This document shows positions 19,978 to 49,311 of a DNA stretch of 64,000 nucleotides, piece by piece (position 1 is the stretch's first letter; each line of letters begins with the position of its first letter). Location: contig NZ_QRZF01000001.1 in the NCBI RefSeq assembly GCF_003464595.1, positions 248,001 through 312,000 on the forward strand. Direction: 5' to 3'. The notes beneath the pieces were generated by a model that was not told where the DNA came from, ran no database searches, and saw only the letters and a list, made by a program, of their open reading frames with translations. Both the position numbers and the translations under genes were made by a program. This stretch comes from Bacteroides intestinalis (GTDB lineage Bacteria > Bacteroidota > Bacteroidia > Bacteroidales > Bacteroidaceae).

Positions 19978-20053
19978 CAAATGTAAGGCTCAGCACTTTC
20001 CCTTTCAATTAAAAAAGACTTAATCGCTAATTAAATTTGAATAAAGTGGTTAA
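19978..20053 (-). promoter_or_regulatory. Promoter of the GH92-led operon with 11-bp TTAA array
   Basis: On the minus strand a perfect -7 box TACATTTG lies at 19978-19985 with a TTG at the -33 position (CAA on plus at 20006-20008, 20-bp gap). Immediately upstream are TTAA at 20009, 20020 and 20031 and TAAA at 20042, exactly 11 bp apart and 24, 35, 46 and 57 bases from the -7 box. The same phase recurs at four other promoters of the PUL. Confidence 0.75.
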
Positions 20054-20072
20054 ATAAGTCTCTTTTTAATGA

Positions 20073-21722
20073 TTATTTCTGTCCGCGGGTCTGTTTTACG
20101 ACCTGTATAGTCCCATCCGGATTATAGAACAACTTGTCTACACAAACCGAACGTAGATTTCCCTGTCCTGAAAAATCAGAAGTGTGATAGAAGGCATACC
20201 ATTGACCTTTATACTTTACAATAGAACCATGACTAGTGTCACAAGTGGTCGGTTCCAGATAAATCCCCTCATACTTCCATGGACCTAACGGGGAGTCGCT
20301 TGTTGCATACCTCAAACGATTGGCGCCTGGGTTATTATCTGCATACGATAGATAGTACTTACCATTGTATTTATGTATCCAGGTCGCTTCATGGAAATCA
20401 CTCAAGCCGGTCATCAGTTTAACCTCTCCGTCCAGTTTCGTCCAGTCATCTTTCCGTAACTTACCACCATAGCATTTACCTCCACCTCCATTATAAATGT
20501 AAGGTTGACCATCCTCATCTATAAATACGCAAGGGTCGATTTCCGGAGGCATACCCTCGATATAACCTCTTACACGGAATTCCTTATTCGGATACTTACT
20601 GGTAGCTACTCCCACCCGCCAGGTACTATTCCAATTAGCAGCATTGGCTGGGTGCGGGAAGTAGAAATAATAGGTTTGATTCTCCGGATTATAAGCACAA
20701 TCAGGAGCCCACATGAAGCCATCACACCCCCAACCATTATGTTTCCGCACTGTGGCTGCATTCATGATCTCTCCATGATCGGTCCAATTCACCATATCTT
20801 CCGTAGAAAAAACATGATAGCGATCCATACGGTCACATCCAAGTGCAGGCTCCATATCATGCGAAGCATATACATAAAGCACTTCTTTTCCATCAATGTT
20901 CCATACATGCGCAGAAGCATCAGCCGTGTAAAGAGGTCCCTTTATCCAACTATTGTACATCGGTGACTCCCACTCTGCAAACAGGGGGTTACCCATTGCT
21001 TTCGTAACAGGGTAAGTGAAAGAATTAGAAATATCTTCCAACTCACCTGTACGCGTTAAAACGAACTTATCAATGTTTCCCGGTGTATTGGCGCAATACT
21101 TCAGTACATGTTTCCCTTTAGTCAGCTGGATTCCATTAGCTTTCACTTTATGGCTAAAATCCGTCCATCCCCCAAGAGGCATATCTATACTGCGGCTTGC
21201 ACCACGACCATCTACCTCAAAGTAGAAACTTCCCTCCGAGCCGTCCCCTTTCACGCAGAATGTTTCAATGGCATAGGCGCCATCCTCATCTACCTCAATC
21301 GTATAACACATCCATTCACCTGGCTGTACATCACCGATATAATAACCTCCGGAAGCCTTACTCTCTGCACGAACATCAACGGCATGGGAACCTCTGTACC
21401 CCGCATCAGCCAGTTTAGAGTCGCTCTCATAATAGGCCACATTCTGTGCTCCCTCATCAAAGTCTTCCGCTTCTAAAGTACCGGGTACGCGATGCGGACC
21501 TTTATAGGCCGTTCCTTTATAAGCTTTCAGATATTTTTCCGAATCATAGTCCATATCATAATCGTACTCATACGGCCCATCAGGAACCGGAGGATCTACC
21601 TCTGGCACTTCAGGGGGAACTTCTGGAGGTATTTCTCCCGGCGTGTCTTTATCGCTGCAAGCTGTAAGAGCAAGTGCAGCAATAAAGAAACCCAACTTCA
21701 ACAGATGAATAAATAGACGCAT
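20073..21722 (-). CDS. CBM6 plus GH43 glycoside hydrolase lipoprotein (paralog 2)
   Basis: A 549-residue lipoprotein (ALALTACSD, Cys 22). A proline-rich linker (about 30-50) leads to a CBM6 (about 80-225: GTLEAEDFDEGAQNVAYYE, GYYIGDVQPGEWMCYTIEV, LTKGKHVLKYC), and then a GH43 propeller (about 240-545). The catalytic acids are in TADASAHVW (Ala replaces the Pro of the paralogs, Asp kept), DPCVF and FHEATW. The GH43 part closely matches the neighbours at 21729-22697 and 8848-9834. The CBM6 would anchor the enzyme to substrate chains. It follows the other GH43 gene by 6 bp, in a two-gene unit. Confidence 0.92.
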   Translation of the reverse strand: MRLFIHLLKLGFFIAALALTACSDKDTPGEIPPEVPPEVPEVDPPVPDGPYEYDYDMDYDSEKYLKAYKGTAYKGPHRVPGTLEAEDFDEGAQNVAYYESDSKLADAGYRGSHAVDVRAESKASGGYYIGDVQPGEWMCYTIEVDEDGAYAIETFCVKGDGSEGSFYFEVDGRGASRSIDMPLGGWTDFSHKVKANGIQLTKGKHVLKYCANTPGNIDKFVLTRTGELEDISNSFTYPVTKAMGNPLFAEWESPMYNSWIKGPLYTADASAHVWNIDGKEVLYVYASHDMEPALGCDRMDRYHVFSTEDMVNWTDHGEIMNAATVRKHNGWGCDGFMWAPDCAYNPENQTYYFYFPHPANAANWNSTWRVGVATSKYPNKEFRVRGYIEGMPPEIDPCVFIDEDGQPYIYNGGGGKCYGGKLRKDDWTKLDGEVKLMTGLSDFHEATWIHKYNGKYYLSYADNNPGANRLRYATSDSPLGPWKYEGIYLEPTTCDTSHGSIVKYKGQWYAFYHTSDFSGQGNLRSVCVDKLFYNPDGTIQVVKQTRGQK

Positions 21723-21728
21723 ACGATT

Positions 21729-22697
21729 TTATTTTGTTTGTTCTACTACTTTTATAGTTCCATCCGGATTATAGTATAGTTTGTCTACACAAATAGAGCG
21801 AAGGTTTCCCCTGCCTGAAATAGAACAGTTATGATAAAAAGCATACCATTCACCGTTATATTCAGCTATAGAGCCATGACTTGTATCGCAACCTGTCGGT
21901 TCCAGATAAATACCCTGATATGTCCATGGTCCTAGCGGTGAATTACTGGTTGCATAATTCAAACGGTTAGCCCCCTTGCCATTTTCTGCATGGTTATCAG
22001 CATAGGACAAGTAGTACACGCCGTCTTTTTTATGTATCCAGGCAGCCTCATGAAAATCTTTCAGACCCTCCATAGCACGCAGCGGTTCTGCCAGTTCCAT
22101 CATATTATCCTTCATTCTGGCACCCACACAACGACCTCCACCGCCATAGTAGAAGTAAGCCTGATCATCATCATCCACAAAGACACAAGGGTCTATCATG
22201 GCAAAGCAATCGTCTTCCATTCCTATCATGTCAATGTACTTGTCCTGTACAGTGAAGTCTTTGGCAGGATGTTTACTGGTAGCTATACCCACTCTCCAGG
22301 TATTGTTCCAGTCATCACCACTCGGGTGCGGAAAGTAAAAATAATAAGTACCATTCCTATATGCACAATCGGGTGCCCACATGAAGCCACCATCTTTACG
22401 TCCCCAAGATACTTGCGAAGAGTTCAGTATTTCACCATGATCCGTCCAGTTCACCATGTCATCCGTAGAGAATACATGATAGCGGTCCATCAAATCGCAT
22501 CCACGCGGAGGATCGACATCATGGGAAGCATAAACATACAGGCGTCCGTCTTCCCATACATGGGCGGAAGGATCAGCTGTGTACATGTGAGTAATGAAAG
22601 GATTCGGGCCTAAAGTAACTGGTTTAGCTTGTTTCTGGCTGTTGCAACTCATCAGTGTCAACGACAAGGCAGCCAAGGTAATCAAATAATTTTTCAT
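21729..22697 (-). CDS. GH43 glycoside hydrolase lipoprotein (paralog 3)
   Basis: The start is placed at ATG 22697 (MKNYLITLAALSLTLMSC), giving a lipoprotein of 322 residues with Cys 18; the upstream frame adds 12 residues that would spoil the signal peptide. GH43 catalytic acids are in TADPSAHVW, DPCVF and FHEAAW. Compared with paralog 1 it has a short insertion (residues about 155-165, KYIDMIGMEDD) in a propeller loop near DPCVF. First gene of a two-gene unit with the CBM6-GH43 gene, driven by the array-bearing promoter at 22731-22776. Confidence 0.92.
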   Translation of the reverse strand: MKNYLITLAALSLTLMSCNSQKQAKPVTLGPNPFITHMYTADPSAHVWEDGRLYVYASHDVDPPRGCDLMDRYHVFSTDDMVNWTDHGEILNSSQVSWGRKDGGFMWAPDCAYRNGTYYFYFPHPSGDDWNNTWRVGIATSKHPAKDFTVQDKYIDMIGMEDDCFAMIDPCVFVDDDDQAYFYYGGGGRCVGARMKDNMMELAEPLRAMEGLKDFHEAAWIHKKDGVYYLSYADNHAENGKGANRLNYATSNSPLGPWTYQGIYLEPTGCDTSHGSIAEYNGEWYAFYHNCSISGRGNLRSICVDKLYYNPDGTIKVVEQTK

Positions 22698-22730
22698 ACG
22701 CTTTTTTATAGTTTTTATGGTTAATATGAG

Positions 22731-22776
22731 CAAAATTAGAGTTGCATGATTAACAAAGCTCTTAATTTCAACTTAA
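22731..22776 (-). promoter_or_regulatory. Promoter of the GH43 pair with 11-bp TTAA array
   Basis: A perfect minus-strand -7 box TAATTTTG occupies 22731-22738. TTAA cores lie at 22750, 22762 and 22773, that is 12, 24 and 35 bases upstream; the last overlaps the 3' end of the RDD/Tiki-like gene. Phase and spacing equal those of the other PUL promoters. Confidence 0.72.
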
Positions 22777-24485
22777 TAATTCGCTGTTTTTTTCTTTTGA
22801 TAAAAATAAGTAACCGACATGCCGCATAATATAAAGATAGCAAGTAAACAAGATAAAAAATAGCCTATATTATCCAATGAATTCGGCATAAAATACATCT
22901 GTTTTCCTCGCCCTATTGAGAGCCCAGATTTCAGGTAATTTAAATTTTCTATATTATCTCCTAATAATAAAGCTCTATCTGCAAGTTTTTTCAAATTCTC
23001 ACTATCAAACATATAATTGAACCCATTACTTGCATAATGTTTAGATAAGGGTTGGTAATAAATAAGCCCCGTGAACATATCCTGATAATGCTTTTTATTT
23101 AGCGGACTCCAATACAAAAAGTGATCGAAACGATCTTTCCCGAAAGGAGATCCATCAAAATTAAATGCAAATCCTTCTTCAGGCATCTGTTCAAATGCTA
23201 CATCCCATTTCCCATGCTGGATAGGGAACATCATTCCAAACCCATAAAAAGCCGATGCAGTGTTAATCATAACATTGGCCACTTTGCCCGGATATGCCTG
23301 TTCAAGATAATATCCACAGTTACCGGGAGTAAGGTATGCATGTCGATAATTCATTATTGTTAAAGACTTTTTCAGACTATCAGACTTTATAGTCGAAATT
23401 ATACTTTCTGCCATCAAACTGTCCCTGGTATATATCAAGCTTTTATCTATCCAATCTTTATCGGTAAAAAAGATATTAACAGGATTGTCTTTATCATGAT
23501 TAAAATAATACATTTTCTTAAGAAAATTGAACCAATTAGTTCTTGTCCACAACAGATCTACCGTTTGATTCTCCATCATAAAAGCAGCCAATTCCTTTTC
23601 AACGATTGTATCATTCGAGAAAGAAGTATCAACAAATGTCTTATAAGCATCACGTGATTCAGCACTTCCAATCTCAGTAAATAAGGTTCCTACATTATCG
23701 ACAAAACGCTCGTCAGTTACCAGATTGTAAATCATATCATACTGGGTCATTTCAGGATGTATTCGTTCACAAAGAATCACATGGTCATATGTCTTAAATA
23801 ACTCCAATACATAATTATTTATGTCCTGACGGTTTTGTTGGAGATAATCCACATATTTTTTTACAGAGTGAGATGTAGGGCGGGGAGTGACAAACATTTG
23901 TTCATTATTATAAAAATCGGGAGTATTTGTAGCAACTGTATTTGTTAAACGGACAGCAGTAGCCACAACAATAAGTATTAAATAGCTACCAATAATTCTT
24001 TTCTTATATAACAATAGTCTTACTATTGGTATAGCAGTCTCGTCTTTAATAATCGAAATTTTAAAGACTCTTTGTTTCCGTGTAGCCAATATACATATTA
24101 CAATAAGAAATAGTAGTTTGAAAAATTTCAAATATAGCTTATCTAATTCCCAGATATAGATAGGTGAAAAATTAGAGAAACAGGCCAGCCATAAAACAAC
24201 AGCAGGAAAACTAGTAAACCCCTCCCTGAACAGAATTCGTAACCATGACGGACTACCTCCAGCAGAACTCACCATTCTGCCATTAAAAAACGCCAATCCA
24301 AAGGTTTGTCCACAGATACAAAAACTGATTACATAATATAACAGCCAAATAATAAAGAAACCGGGTAAGAAAGGTACAAAATAGAAATACGAAATTACCC
24401 ACGCTACTATATTAAAGATAAAAACAGCCACTGTACAATCAATCAAAAATGCAGCGCAACGTTGAAAAAAAGATAAGTGTTTCAT
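22773..24485 (-). CDS. RDD-family membrane protein fused to a ChaN/EreA (Tiki)-like domain
   Basis: A 570-residue membrane protein. The N-terminal part is an RDD domain: RCAAFLIDCTVAVFIFNIVAWVIS, then GQTFGLAFFNGRMVSS, with about five membrane helices up to residue 190. Residues about 210-530 are predicted extracytoplasmic and carry features of the ChaN/EreA/Tiki superfamily: HVILCERIHPEMTQYDMIYNLV (the family's GE.H position, here CERIH), an aspartate-rich middle part and MNYRHAYLTPGNCGYYL. A last helix (about 545-563) ends in a basic tail. Family members include metal-dependent peptidases, erythromycin esterases and haem-binding proteins; the role here is unknown. It follows a GH71/99-like gene by 27 bp and seems co-transcribed with PUL genes. 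Confidence 0.6.
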   Translation of the reverse strand: MKHLSFFQRCAAFLIDCTVAVFIFNIVAWVISYFYFVPFLPGFFIIWLLYYVISFCICGQTFGLAFFNGRMVSSAGGSPSWLRILFREGFTSFPAVVLWLACFSNFSPIYIWELDKLYLKFFKLLFLIVICILATRKQRVFKISIIKDETAIPIVRLLLYKKRIIGSYLILIVVATAVRLTNTVATNTPDFYNNEQMFVTPRPTSHSVKKYVDYLQQNRQDINNYVLELFKTYDHVILCERIHPEMTQYDMIYNLVTDERFVDNVGTLFTEIGSAESRDAYKTFVDTSFSNDTIVEKELAAFMMENQTVDLLWTRTNWFNFLKKMYYFNHDKDNPVNIFFTDKDWIDKSLIYTRDSLMAESIISTIKSDSLKKSLTIMNYRHAYLTPGNCGYYLEQAYPGKVANVMINTASAFYGFGMMFPIQHGKWDVAFEQMPEEGFAFNFDGSPFGKDRFDHFLYWSPLNKKHYQDMFTGLIYYQPLSKHYASNGFNYMFDSENLKKLADRALLLGDNIENLNYLKSGLSIGRGKQMYFMPNSLDNIGYFLSCLLAIFILCGMSVTYFYQKKKTANY

Positions 24486-24512
24486 AATGTATAAGATTTT
24501 AGTGTTACTTTC

Positions 24513-25772
24513 TTATTTCGCATCCCGCCGGGGCATCTCAAAGCTCAGCGGCTTCTCACAACGAAGCATCTTTGCCGCCTCACCCGTCAGCCACAGGTAA
24601 TGATCGGACGGCATCCCATCCATACCCACAAACTTGACTTCTTTTCCCACCGGGGGATTATCTGTACACTTGAAAATGGCAGTACCTTCATTCACTTCAT
24701 CGAACATAGCTACATACAGCATCGTAGCCCCTGCATTGATTGCCGTAGAAATCTGTTGCCAATAAAAGCGTCCGCCCTGACGGGGAATAGAACCGGAAGG
24801 TTTCACATCATCCTTGAATGCATGGCGACTTAGATTGTGCCAACTGAATCCAGGAGTTACACAAGGCACATAACCGATATTATTCTTTTTACACCAGGCA
24901 ATATCATCCAGAATGACATCACGATAGCGGTCCATATCATTGTGAAGCAGTGGGGTAAAACGTTGTACCATCCATGGCAGAATGATATCAGCCTGTCTGA
25001 TAAGCTCATGCAAATAGGGATCATGGATGCAGTCAGCATTCAAGTCTCTCCAGAAAGTAGGCACACCCAGCATCACACTACATCCGCCGTACTCCGGATC
25101 ATTCTTCAGAAAGTCAATAAAACGCTCCAACCCAATATTACGAATATCATACGGACGGTCCGGGAAGCCGACTCCCCAAATAGTAACCAGCGGTTTCCCA
25201 TTATAAAAGACATAAGTCTGTTCACCCTCCTGATTGGTCACACGCAACGAATCAACCAGGTATTTCCAATCATCCATCAACATGGAACAATCTTCATTCT
25301 TAGCCGCCAGACCGGACAAATCATACATCACACCAATAGCACGTCCATATTTGGAAGCCGCTCTCATGGCGTGCTTCAAAACAGTGCTCCGTTTGCGTGC
25401 TTCCGGACGGGCAGCTCCAAAGAAACGTTGCATAAACACTCCGTCCAACCCATACTCCTGCATCCACTTAAAATGCAAGTCTACCGTACTTTCATCCGTT
25501 GAAGAAAAGAAACGGGCAGTAGAACCATCAGCCAGTTTCTGTCCAGTCGGATATGTCTTCTCATATTCATTGACATCCGGCCACATATCGATACGGATAC
25601 TATTTTCATCAGGGTACATCACACCTTTCCCCGGTTGATGAAACCATCCCTGATATCCCGCCATAACAAGGCCCTTGTACGATGGGTATTTAGTAGTTTT
25701 AGAATGCTTGGGGACTGCACTCAGACTTCCAGATAAGAAAAAAACGAATAACAATAAAAGACATTTCCTCAT
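24513..25772 (-). CDS. GH71/99-like protein (copy 1)
   Basis: A 419-residue secreted protein (signal peptide 1-19). It belongs to the glycoside hydrolase 71/99-like group: LVMAGYQGWF near the start, YGLDGVFMQRFFG, IGVMYDLSGL, KPLVTIWGVGF, SVMLGVPTFWR, and the acidic motif MFDEVNEGTAIF near the C-terminus, probably holding catalytic Glu/Asp. GH99 enzymes cleave inside alpha-mannose-containing chains; activity of this group is not certain. Two paralogs lie at 26036-27523 and 45526-46761. A 105-bp hairpin lies between this gene and copy 2. Confidence 0.82.
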   Translation of the reverse strand: MRKCLLLLFVFFLSGSLSAVPKHSKTTKYPSYKGLVMAGYQGWFHQPGKGVMYPDENSIRIDMWPDVNEYEKTYPTGQKLADGSTARFFSSTDESTVDLHFKWMQEYGLDGVFMQRFFGAARPEARKRSTVLKHAMRAASKYGRAIGVMYDLSGLAAKNEDCSMLMDDWKYLVDSLRVTNQEGEQTYVFYNGKPLVTIWGVGFPDRPYDIRNIGLERFIDFLKNDPEYGGCSVMLGVPTFWRDLNADCIHDPYLHELIRQADIILPWMVQRFTPLLHNDMDRYRDVILDDIAWCKKNNIGYVPCVTPGFSWHNLSRHAFKDDVKPSGSIPRQGGRFYWQQISTAINAGATMLYVAMFDEVNEGTAIFKCTDNPPVGKEVKFVGMDGMPSDHYLWLTGEAAKMLRCEKPLSFEMPRRDAK

Positions 25773-25908
25773 GGTTGCAAAAATTTAAGTAGATATTAAA
25801 AATAGGACTGTTACTGTCCGTTCCGACGATTGGTACTGATATCATCGTAGTAGTAGTACTATGTGCCATCTTAAATGGTATCTTTAAAAAGGAGGAAAAG
25901 CATACCTG

Positions 25909-26013
25909 CTACATACCAGAACCATACTTGCTCCGTACATTCTCCAGTCAGAAGTACCTCTGAGTGGAGAAACACTGGAGATGGTACGGAGCAAGTATGG
26001 TTCTGGTACGTAG
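25909..26013. repeat. Long intergenic hairpin with 39-base arms
   Basis: Arms 25909-25947 and 25975-26013 are inverted copies with three mismatches, including 24 consecutive matched bases centred on CATACTTGCTCC. The 27-base loop is 25948-25974. It lies in the 263-bp gap between two GH71/99-like genes and is followed on the minus strand by no T-run. It could be a MITE-like element, an mRNA-stabilising hairpin or an unusual terminator. Confidence 0.85.
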
Positions 26014-26035
26014 CGGATAGATGCAAATCCTTAAT

Positions 26036-27523
26036 TTATCTGGAAGGCCAGGAAGCTTTCAAGGGAATTTCTCCCCGTAGCATCTTCTTGCCTTGACCTA
26101 CAAGCCATAGGTAGTGATCGGTAGGCAATCCGTCTTCAATACCCATAAAGGTTATATTCAAATCCTTAGCACGCTGGCACCAATCATTGCCGGTCAATCC
26201 TTCAACCATTTTGCTGCTAATGCGGTATCCTCCGTTTTGATAAACAACATAATAGTCAACGGCAGACTCATTACTCGGAACATCACTCTGATTCAAGCAT
26301 TTATAAATGGCTGTACCCTCGTCTATTTCATCAAACATAGCAATATAAAGCAATTGCGCACCCGACTTAATGCAATGATACATCTGATTCCAAAGGAATT
26401 TGCCACCCACACGTGAATTTATACCATTATTGGGATGCATATTACGATCGGAAGAACCCGGGAAACAAAGCGGAGCATATTCCACCTTATTTTCTTTGCA
26501 CCATTTGATGTCATTTTCCACAAGACTATGAAAATTTGAGTAGTTATCATTACCAAAACGACCGACAAACCATGGCATGATAACATCGGCAGCCTTTATC
26601 AAGTCATGCAATTTTGCATCCGGTAATGCATCATTCCTTCTTTCACGCCAATAAGTAGGAACACCTAACATAATACTGAATCCCTTTGCTTTCAAACCAT
26701 TCATCAGTTCTTCAATATCATTGAGTGAATAAGGCCGGTTATCATTGAAGCCTACGCCCCACAGCACTATAAGAGGTTTTCCGCCTTGGTAGAGATAATA
26801 CTTTTGTTTAGCATTTCTATTCAACAACTGGAATTTGTCCATGATAGCTTGTGCATCAGCCAGAACCGCATTGGTATTCCGGCTATTATCAGACATAAAG
26901 CCCCCTAAATCGTACATGACACAAATGGCACGCTGGTAAGTATTAGAACCTTTCATGGCCGATTCCAAGACCTTATCAAAGTGATCTTTTCCATCCGGGT
27001 TATTTATAACTTCACCGACAAAACGTTGCATAAATACACCGTCAAGTCCATACTCCTTCATCCATTTGAAATGGAGTAGTACACTGGACTCATCATAGGC
27101 ACTATAGACCGTAGCAACTTCTCCATTCGGATATTGGAATTTTCCGGGGGTATATTGTTTCTCGTACTCCTTCATGTCGGGCCAGAAGTCAATAGAATTA
27201 CGTAATACACCAGGTTCAAACATGTCGTTTTCACGATAATGATACCATTGAGTATTCGTATGCTTACTATGAGAACAGCCGTCACCAGGAGCACCAAACC
27301 AGCCTTGATAACCTGCCATCACTAAGCCACGATAAGTATCAAAAGGCTCGCCATCTACGTGAGGAGTAAAATCGGGGGTATTGTACACTTCCTCAGGCAT
27401 AGGAGGATCCGGTTCATCAGGCTCTATAGCAGGTGGAATGAATGCATCATCTCCGCCACCACAAGACGTAGCACCTGCCAAAAGAACACATAATACCAAA
27501 TAATATATTTTATTCAATCTCAT
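26036..27523 (-). CDS. GH71/99-like lipoprotein (copy 2)
   Basis: A 495-residue lipoprotein (LLAGATSCGGG, Cys 21) with an acidic, proline-rich linker (about 25-55) before the catalytic region. Landmarks are as in copy 1: GLVMAGYQGWF, YGLDGVFMQRF, ICVMYDLGGF, KPLIVLWGVGF, SIMLGVPTYWR and MFDEIDEGTAIY. It has an insertion of about 35 residues after that motif (SNESAVDYYVVYQNGG). The linker suggests outer-surface display. It follows the DUF3823 gene after a terminator-like hairpin, as enzyme genes downstream of susCD often do. Confidence 0.84.
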   Translation of the reverse strand: MRLNKIYYLVLCVLLAGATSCGGGDDAFIPPAIEPDEPDPPMPEEVYNTPDFTPHVDGEPFDTYRGLVMAGYQGWFGAPGDGCSHSKHTNTQWYHYRENDMFEPGVLRNSIDFWPDMKEYEKQYTPGKFQYPNGEVATVYSAYDESSVLLHFKWMKEYGLDGVFMQRFVGEVINNPDGKDHFDKVLESAMKGSNTYQRAICVMYDLGGFMSDNSRNTNAVLADAQAIMDKFQLLNRNAKQKYYLYQGGKPLIVLWGVGFNDNRPYSLNDIEELMNGLKAKGFSIMLGVPTYWRERRNDALPDAKLHDLIKAADVIMPWFVGRFGNDNYSNFHSLVENDIKWCKENKVEYAPLCFPGSSDRNMHPNNGINSRVGGKFLWNQMYHCIKSGAQLLYIAMFDEIDEGTAIYKCLNQSDVPSNESAVDYYVVYQNGGYRISSKMVEGLTGNDWCQRAKDLNITFMGIEDGLPTDHYLWLVGQGKKMLRGEIPLKASWPSR

Positions 27524-27550
27524 TTTTCTATTTTAAATAGTTAAGACAAA

Positions 27551-27586
27551 GGCCGGAAGAACAAACATTCGTCTCCCCTTCCGGCC
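27551..27586 (-). terminator. Hairpin terminator/attenuator after the susCD-DUF3823 genes
   Basis: GGCCGGAAG (27551-27559) and CTTCCGGCC (27578-27586) are perfect inverted copies with an 18-base loop; on the minus strand the stem is followed by TTTGTCTT. It would reduce transcription of the downstream enzyme genes relative to the binding and transport genes. Confidence 0.72.
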
Positions 27587-27617
27587 AACTATCACAATCT
27601 TATTACCCTTAATAAAA

Positions 27618-28343: not shown

Positions 28344-28371
28344 ATCAATACTTTTTCTAAAATTATTCCAT

Positions 28372-30357: not shown

Positions 30358-30374
30358 ATTCTATCCTTTTATCT

Positions 30375-33551: not shown

Positions 33552-33592
33552 ATTTAGATTTTCTATTTATTAAAGAAATCTTCATTTTCGGT

Positions 33593-35293: not shown

Positions 35294-35448
35294 AATAATT
35301 AAATTAAAAGTTGGTAAATATATAATTTGAGTCACTTAAAAAAGTTTATCTTTTCAGTTTGTCCAAAGAGGACTATTTGCAAGAGGATACTTTACGTATA
35401 CTTGTGCATTTTTCATATTTATTAAAATCATGTTTAAAATTATATGGG

Positions 35449-35494
35449 CAAAATTATGAGGCTATCGTTAAAATAGTCCTTAAAAAGACATTAA
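35449..35494 (-). promoter_or_regulatory. Promoter of the DUF4988-susCD operon with 11-bp TTAA array
   Basis: A perfect minus-strand -7 box TAATTTTG occupies 35449-35456. TTAA cores lie at 35468, 35480 and 35491, 12, 24 and 35 bases upstream, the same three positions as at the GH43-pair promoter. Confidence 0.75.
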
Positions 35495-39752: not shown

Positions 39753-39762
39753 AGTATCAAAA

Positions 39763-42627
39763 TTATATAGATAACACTTTATATTTGGTAGTAAATACAA
39801 CTGGAGCCGTATTCTCCTTATCCACACTGAAAGGTATCAGCCTCTCTTCTCCCGGAGCCAACTCATAATGAACGTTATCGCCTACTTTATTACCCCCGAC
39901 ATACATTTCAATTTTTCCTGTATCCATCAAAGTCCCATTGTTTTTGACAGACACCCAAATAGTTTTCTGATTCTTTACCAAGTTTTCTTCCACTTTGAAT
40001 AAAGTCAAACCGAAATCTGCTGCAAATTCATGAGTATATTCAAGCATAGCGGACAAACCTTTCTTGGAATCTACATAACCCACACTATCCTTAATACGGT
40101 CTTTGGCCACATACTGAGGACTTACACCTCCAACTAAGATTTTGAAGGTACCTTTCTCTACAACCCGGTCCATATGATCGTTCAAAAGTGATAGTTCATA
40201 AGGTGTCAGTTCAAAAGAAACCGTTTTCGCTTCACCTGGTTTCAGATGAATACGGGTAAAGTCTTTCAACTCTGTAATACGTGTCTTCACACTGGCATAC
40301 ATATCCGTTACATACAGTTGTACCACCTCATCACCGGCCCGTTGACCTATATTCTTCACAGTAGCCTGCACTGTAATATTACCATTTTCTTTTTCCTGTA
40401 CTTTCAGACCAGAATATTCAAATGAAGTATAACTCAAACCATATCCGAAATAATAAAGAGGATAATATTCCATATCCGAATATTCATAACGACGACCGGA
40501 AGTTTTAAAGTTATAATAGAGAGGGAGCTGACCTACGTGACGTGGGAAAGTCATCGGCAAACGACCGGCAGGATTATAATCACCAAACAGCACATCTGCT
40601 GTTGCCGGACCACCTTCTTGTCCCGGCAACCAATTCACAAGGATAGCTTTACACAATTCTGATGCCTTAGACAGATTATAAGGACGCCCTGCCTGAAGAA
40701 TCAATATAACAGGTTTTCCGGTTGCACAAACAGCTTCCAATAATTCCTGTTGTTTACCCGGCAGAATCAAGGTTGCATAATCATGGTTCTCACCGGATGT
40801 CTTATATACATCCGTCGTCGCCTCACTGGTTGAACAATCTCCCAAAACCAATAGCACCACATCTGATTGTAAAGCTACTTTTACCGCCTTTGCAATATTG
40901 TTTTCACCCAAGCTTGTAAAATCACAACCTTGCTCATAAATCACTTTTGTCTGTTTTCCTACCGCTTGTTTGATACCAGTCAACACAGATTTCAACTGAC
41001 CAGGCTGAAGTTTAGGAGTGTAATCACCAGGCTGAAGATCATCTGCACCGGGACCTAACACAGCAATCGTACGCATGTCTTTAGACAGAGGTAAAATATT
41101 ATCCTTATTTTCTAACAGTACAATAGATTCGCGAGCAGCCTGACGTGCCATTTCTTTATGACTATCTGAATTCCACCCCGGATAAATCTTATTCCAGTCC
41201 AACGGTTTGTTAGGTGCTTTTTCAAACAGCTCATTGCGGAACATCATACGTAACATTGTGCGGCACACCTCGTCAAGGTTTTCCATATTGATTCGTCCAT
41301 CTTTTGCAGCCTGTATCACCTCCTTATCATTATAAGTATCACCACAGTTTGTAGCAATACCGGCTGCCAAAGCCTGGTTAGCAGCTTCTATTTTATCTTT
41401 AGCCGTATAATGCTTACGGGCAGTCAAATTACCTATAGCACCACAGTCGCTAACGATAAAACCGCTGAATCCCCATTCCTCACGTAAAATATTATGTAGT
41501 AATTCTCTACTTTTAGCTACCGGAACACCCAGGAAATCCGAATAAGCCATCATCAAAGATTGGCAATCATAGTTACGAATCACATGACGGAACGGAACCA
41601 GATGTACTTCGCGCATTTCACGTTCAGACAATCCTATATCGTGAGAATCGCGTCCTCCCAATGGAGCACCATGACCACCAAAATGTTTCGGAGTAGTATA
41701 CAACCCCATAGATTGGTAGCCTTTAATCCAAGCTCCACCAATTTGTGATACCAAAACCGGATCTTCTCCAAATGTTTCTTCACAACGTCCCCAACGGGCA
41801 TCCTGTGCTACATCCAATACCGGAGACCATGCCTGCATAGTACCTGCCGAAAGAGTTTCATCGCCAACTGCCATCGCCACTTCTTCCGTCAACTTCTTAT
41901 TCCAGGTTGCTCCCATTCCCAGGGCTTGGGGGAAGATAGTAGCTCCACTACCATATGAGAAGCCATGTACAGCTTCCACCTTTGTAATGGGCGGTACATA
42001 TAAGTGAGGAATACCGGGAATACCCCAGCCCTCACGTATCAGTTCCATTTTATCTTCCGGCGTCATCACAGACAGCAGACTTTCTACACGTTCTTCCACC
42101 GGAAGTGTAGGGTCCATATAGCGGAGCAAAGTTTTTTCTCCTTTCCGATCTTTCAATTCCTTATCAGCTAAAAGAACAGATACTTCCTTTACCATAAAAG
42201 GCTTAACACGATCACCTCCCTTAAAAGCCAACCGGACATGTGCTCCATATTTAGGTGAAAACTTCAACCGCATCTCTTTAGCGCTACCCTGTACCTGGTA
42301 ATCGACAGGCACTCCCAAATTCATAGGATCATATGTAACAAAGATATTCATCAGTTGCTTTAAGTCTTCTTTAGAAACACCTTGCATCTGAACCCCAAGT
42401 TCACATACATCACCAGGGGTCTGGATAGTAAACATCAACCATTGGTCTGTTTTCAAGTCCTGCCCACTAACTTCCCACATTGTCTTTTGATCTTTATCAA
42501 AAGCTAACGAAGCTTTTTCCACATTGGTGGATGCTGAAACGGATAAAATATCACTTGGCTGCTGAGCCATTAGAAAAGAGCAGGATATTATTCCTGCAAA
42601 TAAGAATAAGTGCCTTTTTAAGTTCAT
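39763..42627 (-). CDS. GH3 glycoside hydrolase with N-terminal F5/8-like domain
   Basis: The start is placed at ATG 42627 (MNLKRHLFLFAGIISCSFLM), giving 954 residues; the upstream 22 residues cross the promoter. A discoidin-like domain (about 25-180, VEKASLAFDKDQKTMWEVSG) precedes the GH3 barrel with KVEAVHGFSYG, KHFGGHGAPLGGRDSHDI and the nucleophile Asp in IVSDCGAIG (about 392), the alpha/beta domain (ENHDYATLILPGKQQELL) and a fibronectin-III-like domain (DEVVQLYVTD). A further beta domain ends the protein. It would remove terminal beta-linked sugars. First gene of its operon, divergent from the SARP-like regulator gene. Confidence 0.92.
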   Translation of the reverse strand: MNLKRHLFLFAGIISCSFLMAQQPSDILSVSASTNVEKASLAFDKDQKTMWEVSGQDLKTDQWLMFTIQTPGDVCELGVQMQGVSKEDLKQLMNIFVTYDPMNLGVPVDYQVQGSAKEMRLKFSPKYGAHVRLAFKGGDRVKPFMVKEVSVLLADKELKDRKGEKTLLRYMDPTLPVEERVESLLSVMTPEDKMELIREGWGIPGIPHLYVPPITKVEAVHGFSYGSGATIFPQALGMGATWNKKLTEEVAMAVGDETLSAGTMQAWSPVLDVAQDARWGRCEETFGEDPVLVSQIGGAWIKGYQSMGLYTTPKHFGGHGAPLGGRDSHDIGLSEREMREVHLVPFRHVIRNYDCQSLMMAYSDFLGVPVAKSRELLHNILREEWGFSGFIVSDCGAIGNLTARKHYTAKDKIEAANQALAAGIATNCGDTYNDKEVIQAAKDGRINMENLDEVCRTMLRMMFRNELFEKAPNKPLDWNKIYPGWNSDSHKEMARQAARESIVLLENKDNILPLSKDMRTIAVLGPGADDLQPGDYTPKLQPGQLKSVLTGIKQAVGKQTKVIYEQGCDFTSLGENNIAKAVKVALQSDVVLLVLGDCSTSEATTDVYKTSGENHDYATLILPGKQQELLEAVCATGKPVILILQAGRPYNLSKASELCKAILVNWLPGQEGGPATADVLFGDYNPAGRLPMTFPRHVGQLPLYYNFKTSGRRYEYSDMEYYPLYYFGYGLSYTSFEYSGLKVQEKENGNITVQATVKNIGQRAGDEVVQLYVTDMYASVKTRITELKDFTRIHLKPGEAKTVSFELTPYELSLLNDHMDRVVEKGTFKILVGGVSPQYVAKDRIKDSVGYVDSKKGLSAMLEYTHEFAADFGLTLFKVEENLVKNQKTIWVSVKNNGTLMDTGKIEMYVGGNKVGDNVHYELAPGEERLIPFSVDKENTAPVVFTTKYKVLSI

Positions 42628-42654
42628 ATTATCAGATTTTAATCTATTTTTATG

Positions 42655-42722
42655 CAAAGTAAACGGCAACCGCTTAATAAAATGATAAAACAATAATTAA
42701 TGAAACATTAAAATCCACTTAA
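42655..42722 (-). promoter_or_regulatory. Promoter of the GH3-GH31-GH43 operon with 11-bp TTAA array
   Basis: A -7 box TTACTTTG (one mismatch) lies on the minus strand at 42655-42662. TTAA cores lie at 42674, 42697, 42708 and 42719, with TAAA at 42686, that is 12, 24, 35, 46 and 57 bases upstream. The array also lies 80-130 bp upstream of the divergent regulator promoter, so it could mediate autoregulation. Confidence 0.72.
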
Positions 42723-42840: not shown

Positions 42841-45438
42841 ATGAAAAAGACACAATCTATTATCTTTCTTCTGTTGATGTGTATGCGTTCAGTCGCTCAG
42901 CTTCCTGAATATGGTTTGCATATCCAATCCTATCCGCTTCAGAATTCTGAGTTTACCAGTATGGTATTAGAAGATGGAAAGCCCATAGAGACTAAAGGAG
43001 ACAAAATTACCCTGAGTTTTAACCTCTGGGTGAGACCCGATAATGTATTCGGAACCGTATTCCGCATCATTACTGAAAATAATAAGAATGTCGATCTGAT
43101 GTACAGTGTCAGTGAGAACGACAGACGCTTCCCAATTCTGGTCACCGGAGATGCAGTATACCCCATTCAAAAAGAAGTGAGGCGTGAGACTTGGACTTCA
43201 GCCAGCCTGACCCTCGATGTTAAAGAGGGAAATATTACCGTATTATATGATAGTACGGAAATTAATGTGAATTACCCTGATCTGAAAGGTGCACAGAAAC
43301 TACGCTTTGCTTTCGGCTATTGTCCCTATGAGGGTTTCTCTTTAGCCGATGTGGCTTCCGTTAATTTAAAAGATATCAGTATCAAGCGCGGATTGCAGGA
43401 AATACGTTTGTGGAAAATGGCACGCCATAATCAAGAAGTCTGTTATGACGAGATTTCCCACAGTCCGGCTTCCGGCAAGAATACCCGTTGGATCATAGAC
43501 CAGTATATCACCTGGAAGAAGATTCATTCACAGCAATTCAAATCTTCTCCCTCTGTAGCATTCGATCCTACTGTCGGAACCTTCTACATAGCCAACAATA
43601 AACAAAAGCTGTATGTTTTCCATACGGATGAAAGGATAACTGACACCATTCAGGTAAAAGGCGGCGAGTTTGTAGCCAACTATCCCAACCAGTTGATATA
43701 TATACCAGAGCAACATCAGTTGTTATCCTACAACCTGAATGAAAATCTATATTCGTTCTTTGATCCTGTTTCACAAAGCTGGAAAGGGACACAGGCAGCC
43801 GTACAGGAACATGACTATTGGAATAATACGCTTGTTTATAATCCAGCCAATTCTTCATTGATCAGCTTCGGTGGATATGGACATTATCATTATAATAACA
43901 AGCTATTAATCTGCTATCCTTATGAGGATACCCCGCAGCGTCACCTCAATCTGACAAATATTCATCCCAGATACTCTTCCAGTTCTGTCATAGTTGACAG
44001 CACACTTTATATCTTCGGAGGACGCGGTTGCCCATCCGGACGGCAGGAATTATCTCCCCGTAACTATTATGACTTGTATGCTGTCAACCTTTTGACCCAG
44101 CAAACCAATAAACTATGGGAACTTACTCAGATTCCGGATGGAGGAGACTTTCAACCCAGTGAGAACATGGTTTATGATCCTGAAAAAAAATGTTTTTACT
44201 TCTTCAGTACCCAGCAAGGTGGTACGTTGATGAAAATTGATACTCAAACACCGCATTTCGAACTCATGTCATTGCCTATAGGATTGAAATTAGAGGCTCA
44301 GTATATGTATACCAACCTATACTACTCCCCTAAACAAAAGAAATTATATACGGTGATTCACCAGGCTGAAGTAAGCGGTAAAGCTGATATAGATATCTAT
44401 GAACTGAATTTCCCTCCGATTCCTATTTCATCCTTTAAGCAGCCGGATGTAGTTGCAGACAATGCCGGTCAAAACGATCAGTCATCTATATGGCTGTACA
44501 TCATAGTTGGGGTACTGATTATTGCCGGAATGGGAGTTTTCTATTATAGAAAGAAAAAGGCTGAAATAAACCGGGTCAAGACCGCCACCGGAAACAACAA
44601 GAAAGCGGAAACAAACAGTCTCCAATCAGAAACAGCGAATGGCTCTCTAATCAATGATAGATCTGAGATAAAAATAGAAATGCCCATACACACAGAGACA
44701 ACAACATTCCACAACTATGATTTCTCCAAGGGATGTGTTTGTTTCTTTGGTGGTTTCCATGTTGTGGATAAAGAAGGCAATGACATTACAGCCTTATTTA
44801 CTCCAACCCTTAAAGCCTTATTGATATTGCTTGTGCTCTATACCGGAAGAGATTCCAAAGGAATCATTGGCCATAAGCTAATCCAACTATTATGGTATGA
44901 CAAGACGGATGAATCTGCCAAGAACAACCGTAATGTATATATGAGTAAACTACGCGGTTTATTGGAAAAAGTAGGTGATATCAAAATATTGAATCAAAAT
45001 AGCTTCTGGAGCATACAGTTTGAAGAAGGAACAATTTGCGACTATCTGGAAGCACTTCATTTATATAAAGAGAATAATAGCCAGAACTTAGAGAAGCTGC
45101 TCGAGTTATTGCTACGTGGTATGATGTTACCCAATATGGAAACCGATTGGATCGATACGTTCAAAAACGATTTTTCAAATAGCACTATCGATCTGCTTTG
45201 CAGATTACTGAAGCGGGAAGACCTCTCGGAGACGTTAAAGCTAAAAATTGCAGATACACTATTCCAACATGACTACATCAACGAGGAAGCTCTTTGTGTA
45301 AAATGCCGCATTCTTTGCCAACAAGGTAAAAAAGGGCTTGCCAAGACTGTCTATGATGCTTTCTGCAAAGAGTATGCTGCTTCGCTGGGTACAGAATACA
45401 AGTTCTCCTTAATGGAAATTATCGACGAACAAAACTGA
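42841..45438 (+). CDS. Transmembrane sensor-regulator: LamG/kelch-like periplasmic part, one TM helix, SARP-like DNA-binding domain
   Basis: An 865-residue protein and the only regulator in the PUL. Signal sequence 1-19; a concanavalin-like region (about 30-190, ITLSFNLWVRPDNVFGTVFRI); kelch-like propeller blades (about 230-535, NSSLISFGGYGHYHYNN, STLYIFGGRGCPSG); one membrane helix (about 549-567, WLYIIVGVLIIAGMGVFYY) followed by basic RKKKAE; a linker; then a cytoplasmic OmpR/SARP-like winged helix (about 640-735: LKALLILLVLYTGR, KLIQLLWYD, NNRNVYMSKLRGLLEKVG) and a helical BTAD-like end. It differs from hybrid two-component systems: no kinase or receiver is seen. Likely senses a glycan-derived ligand in the periplasm and activates the PUL promoters; this is inference. 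Confidence 0.82.
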   Translation: MKKTQSIIFLLLMCMRSVAQLPEYGLHIQSYPLQNSEFTSMVLEDGKPIETKGDKITLSFNLWVRPDNVFGTVFRIITENNKNVDLMYSVSENDRRFPILVTGDAVYPIQKEVRRETWTSASLTLDVKEGNITVLYDSTEINVNYPDLKGAQKLRFAFGYCPYEGFSLADVASVNLKDISIKRGLQEIRLWKMARHNQEVCYDEISHSPASGKNTRWIIDQYITWKKIHSQQFKSSPSVAFDPTVGTFYIANNKQKLYVFHTDERITDTIQVKGGEFVANYPNQLIYIPEQHQLLSYNLNENLYSFFDPVSQSWKGTQAAVQEHDYWNNTLVYNPANSSLISFGGYGHYHYNNKLLICYPYEDTPQRHLNLTNIHPRYSSSSVIVDSTLYIFGGRGCPSGRQELSPRNYYDLYAVNLLTQQTNKLWELTQIPDGGDFQPSENMVYDPEKKCFYFFSTQQGGTLMKIDTQTPHFELMSLPIGLKLEAQYMYTNLYYSPKQKKLYTVIHQAEVSGKADIDIYELNFPPIPISSFKQPDVVADNAGQNDQSSIWLYIIVGVLIIAGMGVFYYRKKKAEINRVKTATGNNKKAETNSLQSETANGSLINDRSEIKIEMPIHTETTTFHNYDFSKGCVCFFGGFHVVDKEGNDITALFTPTLKALLILLVLYTGRDSKGIIGHKLIQLLWYDKTDESAKNNRNVYMSKLRGLLEKVGDIKILNQNSFWSIQFEEGTICDYLEALHLYKENNSQNLEKLLELLLRGMMLPNMETDWIDTFKNDFSNSTIDLLCRLLKREDLSETLKLKIADTLFQHDYINEEALCVKCRILCQQGKKGLAKTVYDAFCKEYAASLGTEYKFSLMEIIDEQN

Positions 45439-45498: not shown

Positions 45499-45525
45499 AT
45501 ATTATAATCCGGATTCTACTTTGAT

Positions 45526-46761
45526 TTATTTGCGTTCCGGTTGTTTCATTTCCAACGGTTTTTCTTTACGCAACATTTTACCGGCCTGACCTACCAACCA
45601 TAAATAATGGTCACTTCCGATCCCTTCTTCAATGGGCACAAATGTACTGGCACCAACAGGAACTTTCTTAGCACACTTAAAGATGGCTGTACCCTCGTCT
45701 ATTTCATCAAACATGGCTACATAAATCATCTCAGCCCCTTCCTTGATAGCACCGGATAACTGTTTCCAGAGGAACGAACCCTTATTGCGCGGTATTTGCA
45801 CACTATTCTCATGACCTTTCATGTTACGCCAGGAGAAGCCCGGAAAAGCCAGAGGAGCATAGTCTACTTTATTTTTCTTAGCCCAGGCAATATCATCTTT
45901 AATCAATTTCTGATAACGGGGATATGAATTCTCATTATAACGCCCCACAAACCACGGCATCACAACATCACACCGTTTTATCAATTCATGCAAGCGAGGG
46001 TCCGACTCGGTATCACCATTCAGTTCACGCCAATGTGTAGGTACTCCCAGCATTACACTAAACCCCTGTGCTTGCAGACCATTAATAATCTTTTCTGCTT
46101 CGTTCAGACCATAACGGCGACGGTCATTGAACCCTACACCCCAGATTGTAACCAGTGGCTTTCCGTTATGATACAGATAGGACGGGTTCTTAGCATGATC
46201 CTTTAAAGCATGGCGCTGAGCTATGTCGGCAATATCCTTTAGCAAAACCTCTTCATCACCGGGACGCATACCACTCAGATCATACATCACGCAAATGGCC
46301 CGTTCATACTTATTAGCAGCCTTCATAGCTGAATTCAGTACTACGTTGAAGTGATTCAATCCGCTCTTATTACGAATCTCGCCTACAAAGCGTTGCATAA
46401 AAACTCCATCCAGTCCGTACTCTTTCATCCATCTGAAGTGAGTATCCACCGTAGATTCATCATGCGAAGAGAAAGTATAAGCCGGAGTACCATCGGCAAA
46501 CCTGAATTCCGTCTTATACAGTTTCTTGTACTCCGACACTTCGGGCCAGAAATCAATCGTACAAGAACCGGGACGAAAACCGTCGTGCCCGGTATAGTGA
46601 TACCAACCACGGCCGGCACCGTCATCAGGGGCATTGAACCACCCCTGATAACCGGCCATCACCAATCCTTTGTACGAATTATACTGCTTGCCAGCAGCTT
46701 GTGCTGTAACACCTATTGAAAACAGCAAACATACAATAAACCAATTTATTCTTTTTACCAT
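45526..46761 (-). CDS. GH71/99-like protein (copy 3)
   Basis: A 411-residue exported protein (signal peptide 1-22, ending VTAQAAG). It shares all blocks with copies 1 and 2: YKGLVMAGYQGWF, YGLDGVFMQRFVG, ICVMYDLSGM, KPLVTIWGVGF, SVMLGVPTHWR, VMPWFVGRY and MFDEIDEGTAIF. The compact form without linker or insertion fits a periplasmic enzyme, unlike lipoprotein copy 2. It follows the GH95 gene by 25 bp in the same unit, over 18 kb from the other copies. Confidence 0.84.
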   Translation of the reverse strand: MVKRINWFIVCLLFSIGVTAQAAGKQYNSYKGLVMAGYQGWFNAPDDGAGRGWYHYTGHDGFRPGSCTIDFWPEVSEYKKLYKTEFRFADGTPAYTFSSHDESTVDTHFRWMKEYGLDGVFMQRFVGEIRNKSGLNHFNVVLNSAMKAANKYERAICVMYDLSGMRPGDEEVLLKDIADIAQRHALKDHAKNPSYLYHNGKPLVTIWGVGFNDRRRYGLNEAEKIINGLQAQGFSVMLGVPTHWRELNGDTESDPRLHELIKRCDVVMPWFVGRYNENSYPRYQKLIKDDIAWAKKNKVDYAPLAFPGFSWRNMKGHENSVQIPRNKGSFLWKQLSGAIKEGAEMIYVAMFDEIDEGTAIFKCAKKVPVGASTFVPIEEGIGSDHYLWLVGQAGKMLRKEKPLEMKQPERK

Positions 46762-46786
46762 AACCTATTCCATTTATATCACCTTT

Positions 46787-49216
46787 TTAAAAAGCTCTTT
46801 GCAATGTGTACTTTTCTCCCGGTCGAGTCTGTATATCATACTCATATATCCTGTACAAGATGGGGTACTGTGCCCTTAGTCCTTCGGCCACCAAGGGTTC
46901 CTTGATATCTCCACGTTTCATCAACGGGTTCGGATTATCACCTTTAGCCTCTTTCAGACCAGCACCTTCCAATGGTACATACGAACGTATACGCAGGTTT
47001 CCACCGATACGTGAAGTTACAGTAGCCGTCGTCAGTTCACCGCCATCCCAGTCCATATCAACTTCGAAAGCGCCACGTGCCACCAAACCTTTCACACTAC
47101 CTTTGTTCCATGCCGTGGGCAGGGCAGGCAACAGGTGCAGAGCTTCATCATGGCTTTGAAGCAACATTTCGGCCACGCCTGCCGTGAAACCGAAGTTTCC
47201 GTCAATCTGGAAAGGCGGATGTGCATCGAACATATTCGGATAAGTACGTCCGTCAGGATTATCCTTCTCCACCAACTTCAGCATATTTTTGATAATCGTA
47301 TACGCATGATCCCCGTCGAGCAAGCGTGCCCAAAGATTGATTTTCCAACCGATGGACCACCCCGTAGCCATATCACCCCGATAGAGGAGCGAACGCTTGG
47401 CGGCCTGGAAAAGCTGCGGATGGGCATAAGGAGAAATCTGATTACTTGGGTAAAGCCCGTACAGATGAGAGACGTGACGGTGATCATTATTCGGATCATC
47501 GACATCGGCAAGCCATTCCTGCAACTGGTTATGTTTACCTATCTGCATAGGAGGCAAGCGCTTGATCATGCCTTGCAGGCTATCGCAATACGATGTATGG
47601 CCGGGATATAACAACTTCGTGGCGGACAGTACCGAAGTCAGTGCATCCAGTACAATCTGAGTGTCCATGGTACATCCGGCGGTCAGCATGGTTCCCGTTC
47701 CCGGAGGACCTTGCTCGGGAGACATGGACGGCGCACAAACCATCCAACCGTACTTAGGATGTTCTACCAGGAAATCGAGGAAGAAATCGGCTGCCCCTTT
47801 CAAAGCCGGATAAGCAGTCTGCAAGAAGGCCTGGTCACCCGTATAAAGATAATGTTGCCACAAGTGCTGACTGAGCCACGCACCGCCCAAAGGCCAAACA
47901 TACGAAGCACCATCCACCGGACCGGCCATGCGCCACAAGTCCGTATTATGATGCACCGTCCAGCCCCGACAATCGTACAAGGTACACGCAGTTCCTTGTG
48001 CCGACTCGGACAATTCTTTCACCATTTGGAAAAGAGGTTGATGCATTTCCGGCAAATTGGTTACTTCTGCCGGCCAGTAGTTCATCTCTGTATTGATATT
48101 GATGGTATATTTTCCATCCCACGGAGCCAGCAATTCATGATTCCAGATGCCTTGCAAACCTGCAGGTTGCCCACCGGGTTGTGAAGAAGAGATAAGCAAA
48201 TAACGTCCGAACTGGAACATCAGGGCTACCAATCCCAGGTCTTTTCCCTCGTTAAAGTGCTTAATGCGGTAAGAAGTTTCTTCCTTGCTGGAAGCACCTA
48301 CATTCAGCGAAACACGTCCGAACAGCTTTTGATAAGCCTCCTCGTGAGCAGCAAGGGCTTGTGCATAGGGGCGTTTCATGGCCTGCGACAAGAACTCTGT
48401 TGCACGGCGGGTTTCATTGGCACTTACATCTTTATAATTGACAAAGTTGGTGGCAGCGGTTACATAGATCACTGCTGCGTCTGCTCCTTTCACTTCGATG
48501 CAGTCGTTGGTGACGTTGACTTTGCCTTTCTCGGCCTTTATCTGCGTACGGGTTTCAAAGCGGATGGCACCCGGAATGCCTTCGTGTGCAGAGCCATGTC
48601 CGGACAGCAGCAGGCTTTTACCGTTCTTTTTTATTTCGTATTCTTTGTACGGAGTGCTATATCGAGTGGTAAAATTGACTGCTCCCGGTTTGTCGGCTTC
48701 GATACGCACAATCAGAGCATTATCTGCCAAGGATGTAAACATGGTACGGATATAGTTTACTTCACCTATTTTATAGCGTACGGAGGCTATTGCCTTCTCC
48801 AAATCCAGTTCCCTGCGATAATCGGAATAGTCGGCGTGTCCATCAAATTCCAGCATCAGGCTACCAATGGTTTGAAATGGCATGCCGTGTTGTCCGGTAA
48901 AGAAGTTGTCGGCAATCATTTTTTCAGCTTCCTTCTCACGTCCGGAGAAAAGCAACTCCCTAACTGTGGGCAATACACCGAGTGCTTTCGGACTATCATT
49001 CCGGTGCGGACCACCACCCCAAACAGTCTCTTCATTCAACTGTATCTGCTCGTTAACTACTCCGCCATAGACCATGGCGCCTAAACGCGAATTACCCAGA
49101 GGTAATGCTTCAGTCCATACTTTAGCCGGTTGCTTGTACCACAGCTTCAGATCGTCAGCTTTGGCCATCACACAGCAAGCACACAGCAAGCACAGACTTA
49201 TTAAACGGTTTTTCAT
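46787..49216 (-). CDS. GH95 alpha-L-fucosidase/alpha-L-galactosidase
   Basis: The start is placed at ATG 49216 ([18 protein letters not shown]), giving 809 residues and a clean signal peptide; the upstream 10 residues overlap promoter sequence. Typical GH95 blocks are present: [52 protein letters not shown] followed by [39 protein letters not shown] and [15 protein letters not shown]. All presumed catalytic positions (two Asn, Glu, Asp) are kept, unlike the GH95-like protein at 9875-12247. First gene of a two-gene unit with GH71/99-like copy 3. Confidence 0.94.
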
Positions 49217-49243
49217 GATTCTTAAATTTACATTTTCCAGATG

Positions 49244-49311
49244 CAAAGAAAAGCGTATCTCATTAATAAAATCGATTAAAATGCATTAATATCGACTTAA
49301 AATTATATTAA
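49244..49311 (-). promoter_or_regulatory. Promoter of the GH95 operon with 11-bp TTAA array
   Basis: A degenerate -7 box TTTCTTTG lies on the minus strand at 49244-49251. TTAA cores lie at 49263, 49276, 49286, 49297 and 49308, that is 12, 25, 35, 46 and 57 bases upstream. Together with the GH3-operon promoter it shares TTTTATTAA just before the -7 region. Confidence 0.7.

Follow-up and report, generated by a model that had tools for sequence, protein, structure and literature searches.

Do the five promoters of one large polysaccharide utilization locus (PUL) in Bacteroides intestinalis answer to a single regulator, and if so, how would that regulator recognize them? The locus occupies the minus strand from approximately 49.2 kb down to 6 kb of a stretch of 64,000 nucleotides (contig NZ_QRZF01000001.1, positions 248,001 to 312,000, hereafter the window). 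Upstream of each of its five promoters, TTAA cores recur in a common phase at close to one per helical turn, and divergent from one of them lies the gene of a putative membrane-bound regulator whose C-terminal domain is predicted to fold like the SARP activators of Streptomyces. At a probability of about 0.84, we propose that this protein is a membrane-anchored one-component activator that binds all five arrays and co-activates the PUL.

The arrays are as follows, with slots given as the distance from the first T of TTTG in the -7 box, in the upstream direction, to the first T of TTAA:

49244..49311, minus strand: array 5 (promoter 49247), TTTG at 49247-49244, before the GH95 gene (ATG 49216); slots 19, 32, 42, 53 and 64 filled; -7 box TTTCTTTG; orthologs L001, L006 and L004.
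42655..42722, minus strand: array 4 (promoter 42658), divergent from the regulator gene and before the GH3 gene (ATG 42627); slots 19, 42, 53 and 64 filled; -7 box TTACTTTG; orthologs L001, L006, L004 and L005.
35449..35494, minus strand: array 3 (promoter 35452), before the DUF4988/SusC/SusD unit; slots 19, 31 and 42 filled; -7 box TAATTTTG; orthologs L001 and L006.
22731..22776, minus strand: array 2 (promoter 22734), before a GH43 gene (ATG 22697); slots 19, 31 and 42 filled; -7 box TAATTTTG; ortholog L213, no array found at the orthologous gene in L214 and L215.
19978..20034, minus strand: array 1 (promoter 19981), before the GH92 gene (ATG 19941); slots 31, 42 and 53 filled, slot 19 empty; -7 box TACATTTG; same pattern in L213, L214 and L215.

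Three to five of the slots at 19, 31, 42, 53 and 64 bp are thus filled at each promoter. A preliminary description of this DNA had reported the same five minus-strand arrays with cores at 12, 24, 35, 46 and 57, which are our slots less 7; all five lie where it placed them. Its -7 boxes hold in part, since TTTG is present at all five promoters but the fuller TAnnTTTG at only three (19985, 22738 and 35456). The first in-frame ATG follows 31-40 bp downstream in four units and 159 bp downstream in the SusC/D unit. The slot-32 core of promoter 49247 is probably accidental because it is absent from the three aligned orthologous promoters (L001, L006 and L004), which would leave 19, 31, 42; 19, 42, 53, 64; and 31, 42, 53 as the conserved layouts. 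When both strands of the window were scanned for any TTTG with at least three of the five slots filled upstream (±1 bp), exactly the five PUL promoters were returned and nothing else, and ten shifted phases gave 1, 1, 0, 0, 1, 1, 2, 1, 0 and 0 arrays. Since the slots were taken from these very promoters, the weight of the argument lies with tests made on other genomes.

The candidate for binding these arrays is the only regulator among 25 open reading frames (ORFs) of the window that were scanned against Pfam (approximately 2.8 kb to 52.1 kb):

42841..45438, plus strand: regulator gene, 865 aa; signal peptide (called by eye), laminin-G-like and Kelch beta-propeller ectodomain, one predicted transmembrane helix, C-terminal SARP-like domain.
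44476..44559, plus strand: predicted transmembrane helix of the regulator, residues 546-573; a hydrophobic stretch that is helical in the structure model.
44707..45435, plus strand: C-terminal part of the regulator, last 243 aa; predicted winged helix followed by a helical (BTAD-like) bundle.

The ectodomain has Kelch-type Pfam matches, its other Pfam matches being below threshold, and homologs with 78-82% identity occur in Bacteroides oleiciplenus, B. timonensis, B. cellulosilyticus and an uncultured Bacteroides. Because a fold search with the full-length protein was filled by beta-propeller and laminin-G matches, the C-terminal part was folded alone. Its predicted structure best matches the SARP activator AfsR, followed by EmbR, and combines an OmpR-type winged helix with a BTAD bundle, as in SARPs. 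In sequence comparison, the C-terminal part has no convincing Pfam match of its own, and among homologous domains at E ≤ 1, Trans_reg_C is matched by 16 of 43 (best 3.6e-5) and BTAD by 10 of 43 (best 4.4e-6), the window regulator matching neither at that threshold. A profile search of PDB sequences with the domain gave chance-level matches only, including AfsR at E 2.1, and a PDB sequence search with the single protein gave none; in NCBIfam, the domain has only weak AfsR/BagI matches and the whole protein no match. In one draft genome (L021:10001-12527) the regulator gene is interrupted, with only a C-terminal ORF (11615-12530) recovered, and two arrays remain there.

The arrays recur beside relatives of this gene. 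In 25 regions of about 500 bp each upstream of regulator homologs, examined with no promoter anchor and including near-identical orthologs (L001/L002 and L003/L006), we counted 33 pairs of TTAA at a spacing of 11 bp, versus 1.6 in dinucleotide shuffles; spacings of 22-23, 34 and 45 bp are enriched too, and a few off-phase spacings, 6 and 39 bp among them, mildly so. The slots of the window, applied to the 25 homolog loci fetched first, detect at least one array in 19. Extended to 44 loci other than the window (paralogs and the same near-identical orthologs included), these window-derived slots detect an array no more than 1 kb away from the regulator gene in 30, versus 0-2 at each of twelve shifted phases, and return 71 arrays in total, versus 1-6. 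The loci in which arrays accompany the regulator family are labelled Bacteroides, Dysgonomonas, Proteiniphilum, Petrimonas and Muribaculum, and arrays also lie beside paralogs.

The same association is seen genome-wide. Across twelve whole genomes, each of two array patterns has 0-6 matches per genome (reversed patterns, 0-1), and these cluster near regulator genes. The wide occurrence of phased arrays in front of unrelated genes, which the preliminary description had named as a refutation, is not seen. Matches less than 25 kb from a regulator gene make up 16/30 and 30/40 for the two patterns (together 46/70), compared with 2.7% expected under uniform placement, the count being based on 30 regulator places from 35 rows, five of which are second fragments of the same genes. 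As five sites match both patterns, the 70 matches represent 65 sites, 41 of them near a regulator gene. Three of the matches distant from known regulators form an array conserved in three species (L216:6839, L217:7317 and L218:6741), upstream of similar genes whose secreted, pectate-lyase-like product carries an F5/8 type C domain; no regulator was found near these conserved sites, and they may be true distant targets.

Orthologous promoters, of which 1 to 4 could be aligned per unit, retain the phasing in all five units. With the window as reference, 178 of 184 TTAA core positions (97%) and 216 of 292 linker positions (74%) are unchanged, a difference with a Fisher p of ~6e-12 if positions are treated as independent. 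The expectation that related Bacteroides would keep the phasing is therefore borne out for these aligned promoters, with slot 32 unconserved and array 2 missing in two species.

The anatomy of the operator can be read from 64 non-redundant arrays comprising 222 boxes. The base before TTAA is A or T in 87% and C in only 1%, and the base after it is T or G in 88% and A in 1%; these flank biases identify the units as oriented direct repeats rather than palindromes. The 11-bp pitch given in the preliminary description applies to three of the steps between slots (11 bp in 78/86) but not to the step from slot 19 to slot 31, for which 33 pairs give 12 bp in 21 cases, 11 bp in 11 and 13 bp in 1. Two layouts predominate, slots 19, 31 and 42 only (20 of 64 arrays) and a proximal box with a distal triplet at 42, 53 and 64, slot 31 being empty (15 of 64). 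TAnnTTTG accompanies 21/35 arrays with slot 31 filled versus 9/29 with it empty, and in the latter a box starting with TT is commoner than one starting with TA. The proximal unit ends 8-10 bp from the -7 box, and the array covers the position of the -33 element. In B. thetaiotaomicron, the -7 element is centred at -7 (PMC7366714); if the same holds here, the two proximal 11-bp units would lie near -27 to -17 and -39 to -29. The AfsR box spans -40 to -19, with its upstream repeat at -40 to -30 (PMC10936776), so by this arithmetic, which starts from the box rather than from a measured start site, the two units would fall within ~2 bp of the AfsR box, the second covering the -33 element. Near the most distant regulators (L210, L211, L204 and L205), whose helix region reads KN(L/S)(K/R)(N/G)VT, arrays or repeats have C- or G-rich flanks (TTAACCC or GGGTTAA), possibly a second operator dialect.

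These features resemble those of SARP operators, in which direct repeats of 11 or 22 bp adjoin the -10 box, the last ending about 8 bp from the -10 element (PMC10936776); the PimR operator contains three heptamers with 4-nt spacers (PMC5930380). As in those systems, direct repeats at one-turn pitch overlap the upstream promoter element and end ~8-10 bp from the -10 or -7 box; the steps here are 11-12 bp, the units are oriented and the proximal box begins 19 bp before TTTG, array 19981 having no proximal box. On the protein side, the predicted fold of winged helix and BTAD bundle is shared with AfsR and PimR of Streptomyces and with EmbR of Mycobacterium. In classical SARPs, however, this domain is N-terminal, whereas here it is C-terminal, behind a signal peptide, a predicted periplasmic sensor and a transmembrane helix. 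Further differences from Streptomyces SARPs are the phylum and sigma factor, an AT-rich core (TTAAK) in up to four conserved units, targets in glycan use and a sequence similarity too weak to detect AfsR at better than the E value given above. The protein is a SARP-domain regulator that would work like a SARP, not a classical SARP.

Three other systems invite comparison. ToxR has an N-terminal cytoplasmic winged helix, a transmembrane segment and a C-terminal periplasmic part; relative to ToxR/TcpP membrane-bound activators, the order is reversed in the Kelch-SARP regulator, with the sensor N-terminal and the DNA-binding domain C-terminal, and there is an additional BTAD-like bundle and a longer phased array. 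Hybrid two-component systems (HTCS) of Bacteroides PULs also have a large periplasmic sensor, and like them the Kelch-SARP regulator lies beside a PUL with operons for SusC/D and glycosidases. Unlike them, it shows no histidine kinase, receiver or AraC DNA-binding domain in Pfam scans, and predicted HTCS motifs are paired sites with a mean separation of about 21 bp (PMC3878776). TAACTGA direct repeats, described in Beggiatoaceae, some Cyanobacteria and five Bacteroidetes, are likewise intergenic sets of short oriented repeats upstream of genes, but the heptamer differs and is not linked to a SARP-type regulator in the available part of that source (PMC4679880). In the Orange Guaymas genome they lie mostly within several nucleotides of the start codon, and binding by a post-transcriptional regulator has been suggested (PMC4679880). 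Control of Bacteroides PULs is described, in the portions of the literature available to us, through SusR-like proteins, HTCS and extracytoplasmic function (ECF) sigma factors. Neither this regulator class nor a TTAA operator is described in the titles and abstract openings of the open-access matches listed, which does not prove that no description exists.

In the mechanism we favor, the five arrays would be operators for the PUL's own regulator, a putative inner-membrane one-component sensor whose periplasmic Kelch/laminin-G-like ectodomain may sense a glycan fragment. Its cytoplasmic C-terminal SARP-type domain would bind the WTTAAK direct repeats, one protomer per helical turn, with protomers side by side. 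The proximal unit lies ~8-10 bp from the -7 box, and the one after it covers the place of the -33 element. The chain of bound protomers would thereby make up for a -33 contact that is missing and keep RNA polymerase with sigma-ABfr at the -7 box, much as AfsR does for sigma-HrdB. All five units would be switched on together, the regulator probably acting by activation rather than repression.

The arrays, their phase, orientation and conservation, and their link to the regulator family are observed directly, and the predicted fold agrees with them. Of what the preliminary description proposed, a shared operator gains support from its recurrence near regulator homologs and from core conservation, and a SARP-type site architecture from the fold and the phased one-turn repeats. 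Its single regulon bound by the 42841-45438 protein is upheld as far as the arrays are linked to this regulator family, binding and activation themselves being inferred. Four observations weigh against our interpretation: array 19981 has no proximal box, a layout shared by three other species; 14 of the 44 homolog loci have no nearby array; 24 of the 70 genome-wide matches are distant from known regulators; and array 22734, found in B. oleiciplenus (L213), was not found at the orthologous GH43 gene of B. cellulosilyticus and B. timonensis, which starts ~40 bp after another gene. The last of these lowers the probability of our interpretation very slightly.

Two alternatives survive best, each with a small and equal share of the probability. 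Instead of a specific operator, the arrays could be AT-rich promoter elements that happen to be in phase, either as curved DNA or as UP-like sites bound by RNA polymerase or by a nucleoid protein. The DNA is indeed AT-rich, with T runs between boxes, and the arrays adjoin -7 boxes. Such elements should stand before many genes in most Bacteroidaceae, whereas the array patterns are rare and concentrated near the regulator family, the unit is oriented, and its cores resist substitution more than the linkers. A survey of 199 genomes of the family bears on both sides. The regulator is matched in 12 of them, which tend to be larger; these hold 30 pattern matches, compared with 78 in the other 187, making matches about six times commoner per genome where the regulator is found (sums counted by eye, with sites matching both patterns included). 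Genomes where no regulator was found still exceed the reversed patterns (78 in 187 versus 54 in 199), though up to four candidates were scored in most genomes and some of the 187 may hold distant relatives; 3 of the 12 regulator-bearing genomes have no match at all. Left in these counts is TTAACAT(C)...TTTAAA...TTTG, conserved in eight genomes (L056, L061, L080, L166, L167, L171, L177 and L178), which looks like an unrelated conserved promoter that meets the array pattern by chance.

Equally improbable is binding by a different factor, an HTCS, SusR-like or other protein encoded elsewhere, with the Kelch-SARP protein a mere neighbor. PULs are commonly under HTCS or SusR proteins, and the pattern matches distant from any regulator found would fit this explanation. 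The spacing of HTCS motifs given above and that of SusR sites (67 or 77 bp; PMC3878776) differ from that of the arrays, no HTCS or ECF-type domain occurs among the 25 scanned ORFs, and the arrays accompany the regulator family under five genus labels and beside paralogs. On this evidence we set aside both DNA curvature and an operator for HTCS or SusR proteins. Chance in AT-rich DNA combined with pattern-seeking, for which the origin of the slots in the same five promoters might speak, is set aside as extremely improbable given the shifted-phase controls, unanchored spacing elsewhere, orthologous footprints and genome-wide clustering.

A more tentative extension, possible but with the odds against it, is that membrane-anchored SARP-type glycan sensors of Bacteroidales have their own operator code, with one WTTAAK word per helical turn replacing the -33 element and paralogs in one cell kept apart by small, matched changes in array and recognition helix. 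The comparison is confined to arrays in which slots 19, 42 and 53 are filled and slot 31 is empty. Among these, every array beside a regulator whose helix reads NVY.SKLR carries A ahead of the distal TTTTAA box (10/10), and every array beside a regulator with VT in the corresponding position (five NVTLRKLR, one YVTLSKLR) carries T (6/6), a difference picked by eye after viewing an alignment of ~70 columns. Leave-one-out classification by whole array was right in 13 of 16 cases, and 9 of 200 label permutations did as well, for groups that we chose ourselves (13 loci in one, 6 in the other) and that include some related arrays. Having been seen after the fact in partly related arrays, the match is a lead from sequence comparison, and the one differing VT helix slightly lowers the probability of such a code. 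If it is true, DNA sequence alone could suffice to predict regulons for many PULs that are still uncharacterised. The regulator class itself would be a further one for PULs, uniting sensor and DNA-binding domain in one membrane chain with a near-digital operator. It would allow regulons and inducible promoters to be predicted by pattern search in many Bacteroidales, and would extend SARP-style rescue of weak promoters to a phylum whose primary sigma factor and promoter boxes differ.

From 49.2 kb, the PUL encodes in order GH95, GH99-like, GH3, GH31, GH43, a DUF4988 protein, SusC, SusD, DUF3823, two GH99-like proteins, an RDD membrane protein, two GH43 proteins, GH92, GH3, GH2, GH95, GH43 and GH30. 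Grouped by spacing, the genes form five putative operons:

45526..49246, minus strand: unit under array 5, GH95 and GH99-like genes, from ORFs and Pfam.
35725..42693, minus strand: unit under array 4, GH3, GH31 and GH43 genes.
22773..35335, minus strand: unit under array 3, DUF4988, SusC, SusD, DUF3823, two GH99-like and RDD membrane protein genes.
20073..22733, minus strand: unit under array 2, two GH43 genes.
5964..19941, minus strand: unit under array 1, GH92, GH3, GH2, GH95, GH43 and GH30 genes.

A ceramidase-like gene (5964-7244) that follows a 182-bp gap is perhaps a member of the array 1 unit. A short leader ORF (MKNAQ..., 35354-35416, minus strand, 14-25 codons) starts 36-39 nt past the TTTG of the SusC/D promoter and is retained in L001, L003 and L006; as an element common to all units it was set aside, a conserved leader having been examined for the SusC/D unit only. 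Between the PUL and the next genes (49492-49574, plus strand), TATACGACT is repeated four times at a pitch of exactly 22 bp. Of 121 genomes searched for the spaced pair, one from another member of the Bacteroidaceae (G068) has it 28 times, G053 has it once and the remaining 119 lack it; it is a dispersed intergenic repeat. At the left flank of the PUL (2794-5223, minus strand) lies a gene for a DUF3987/BT4734-like protein, a type often found near mobile elements.

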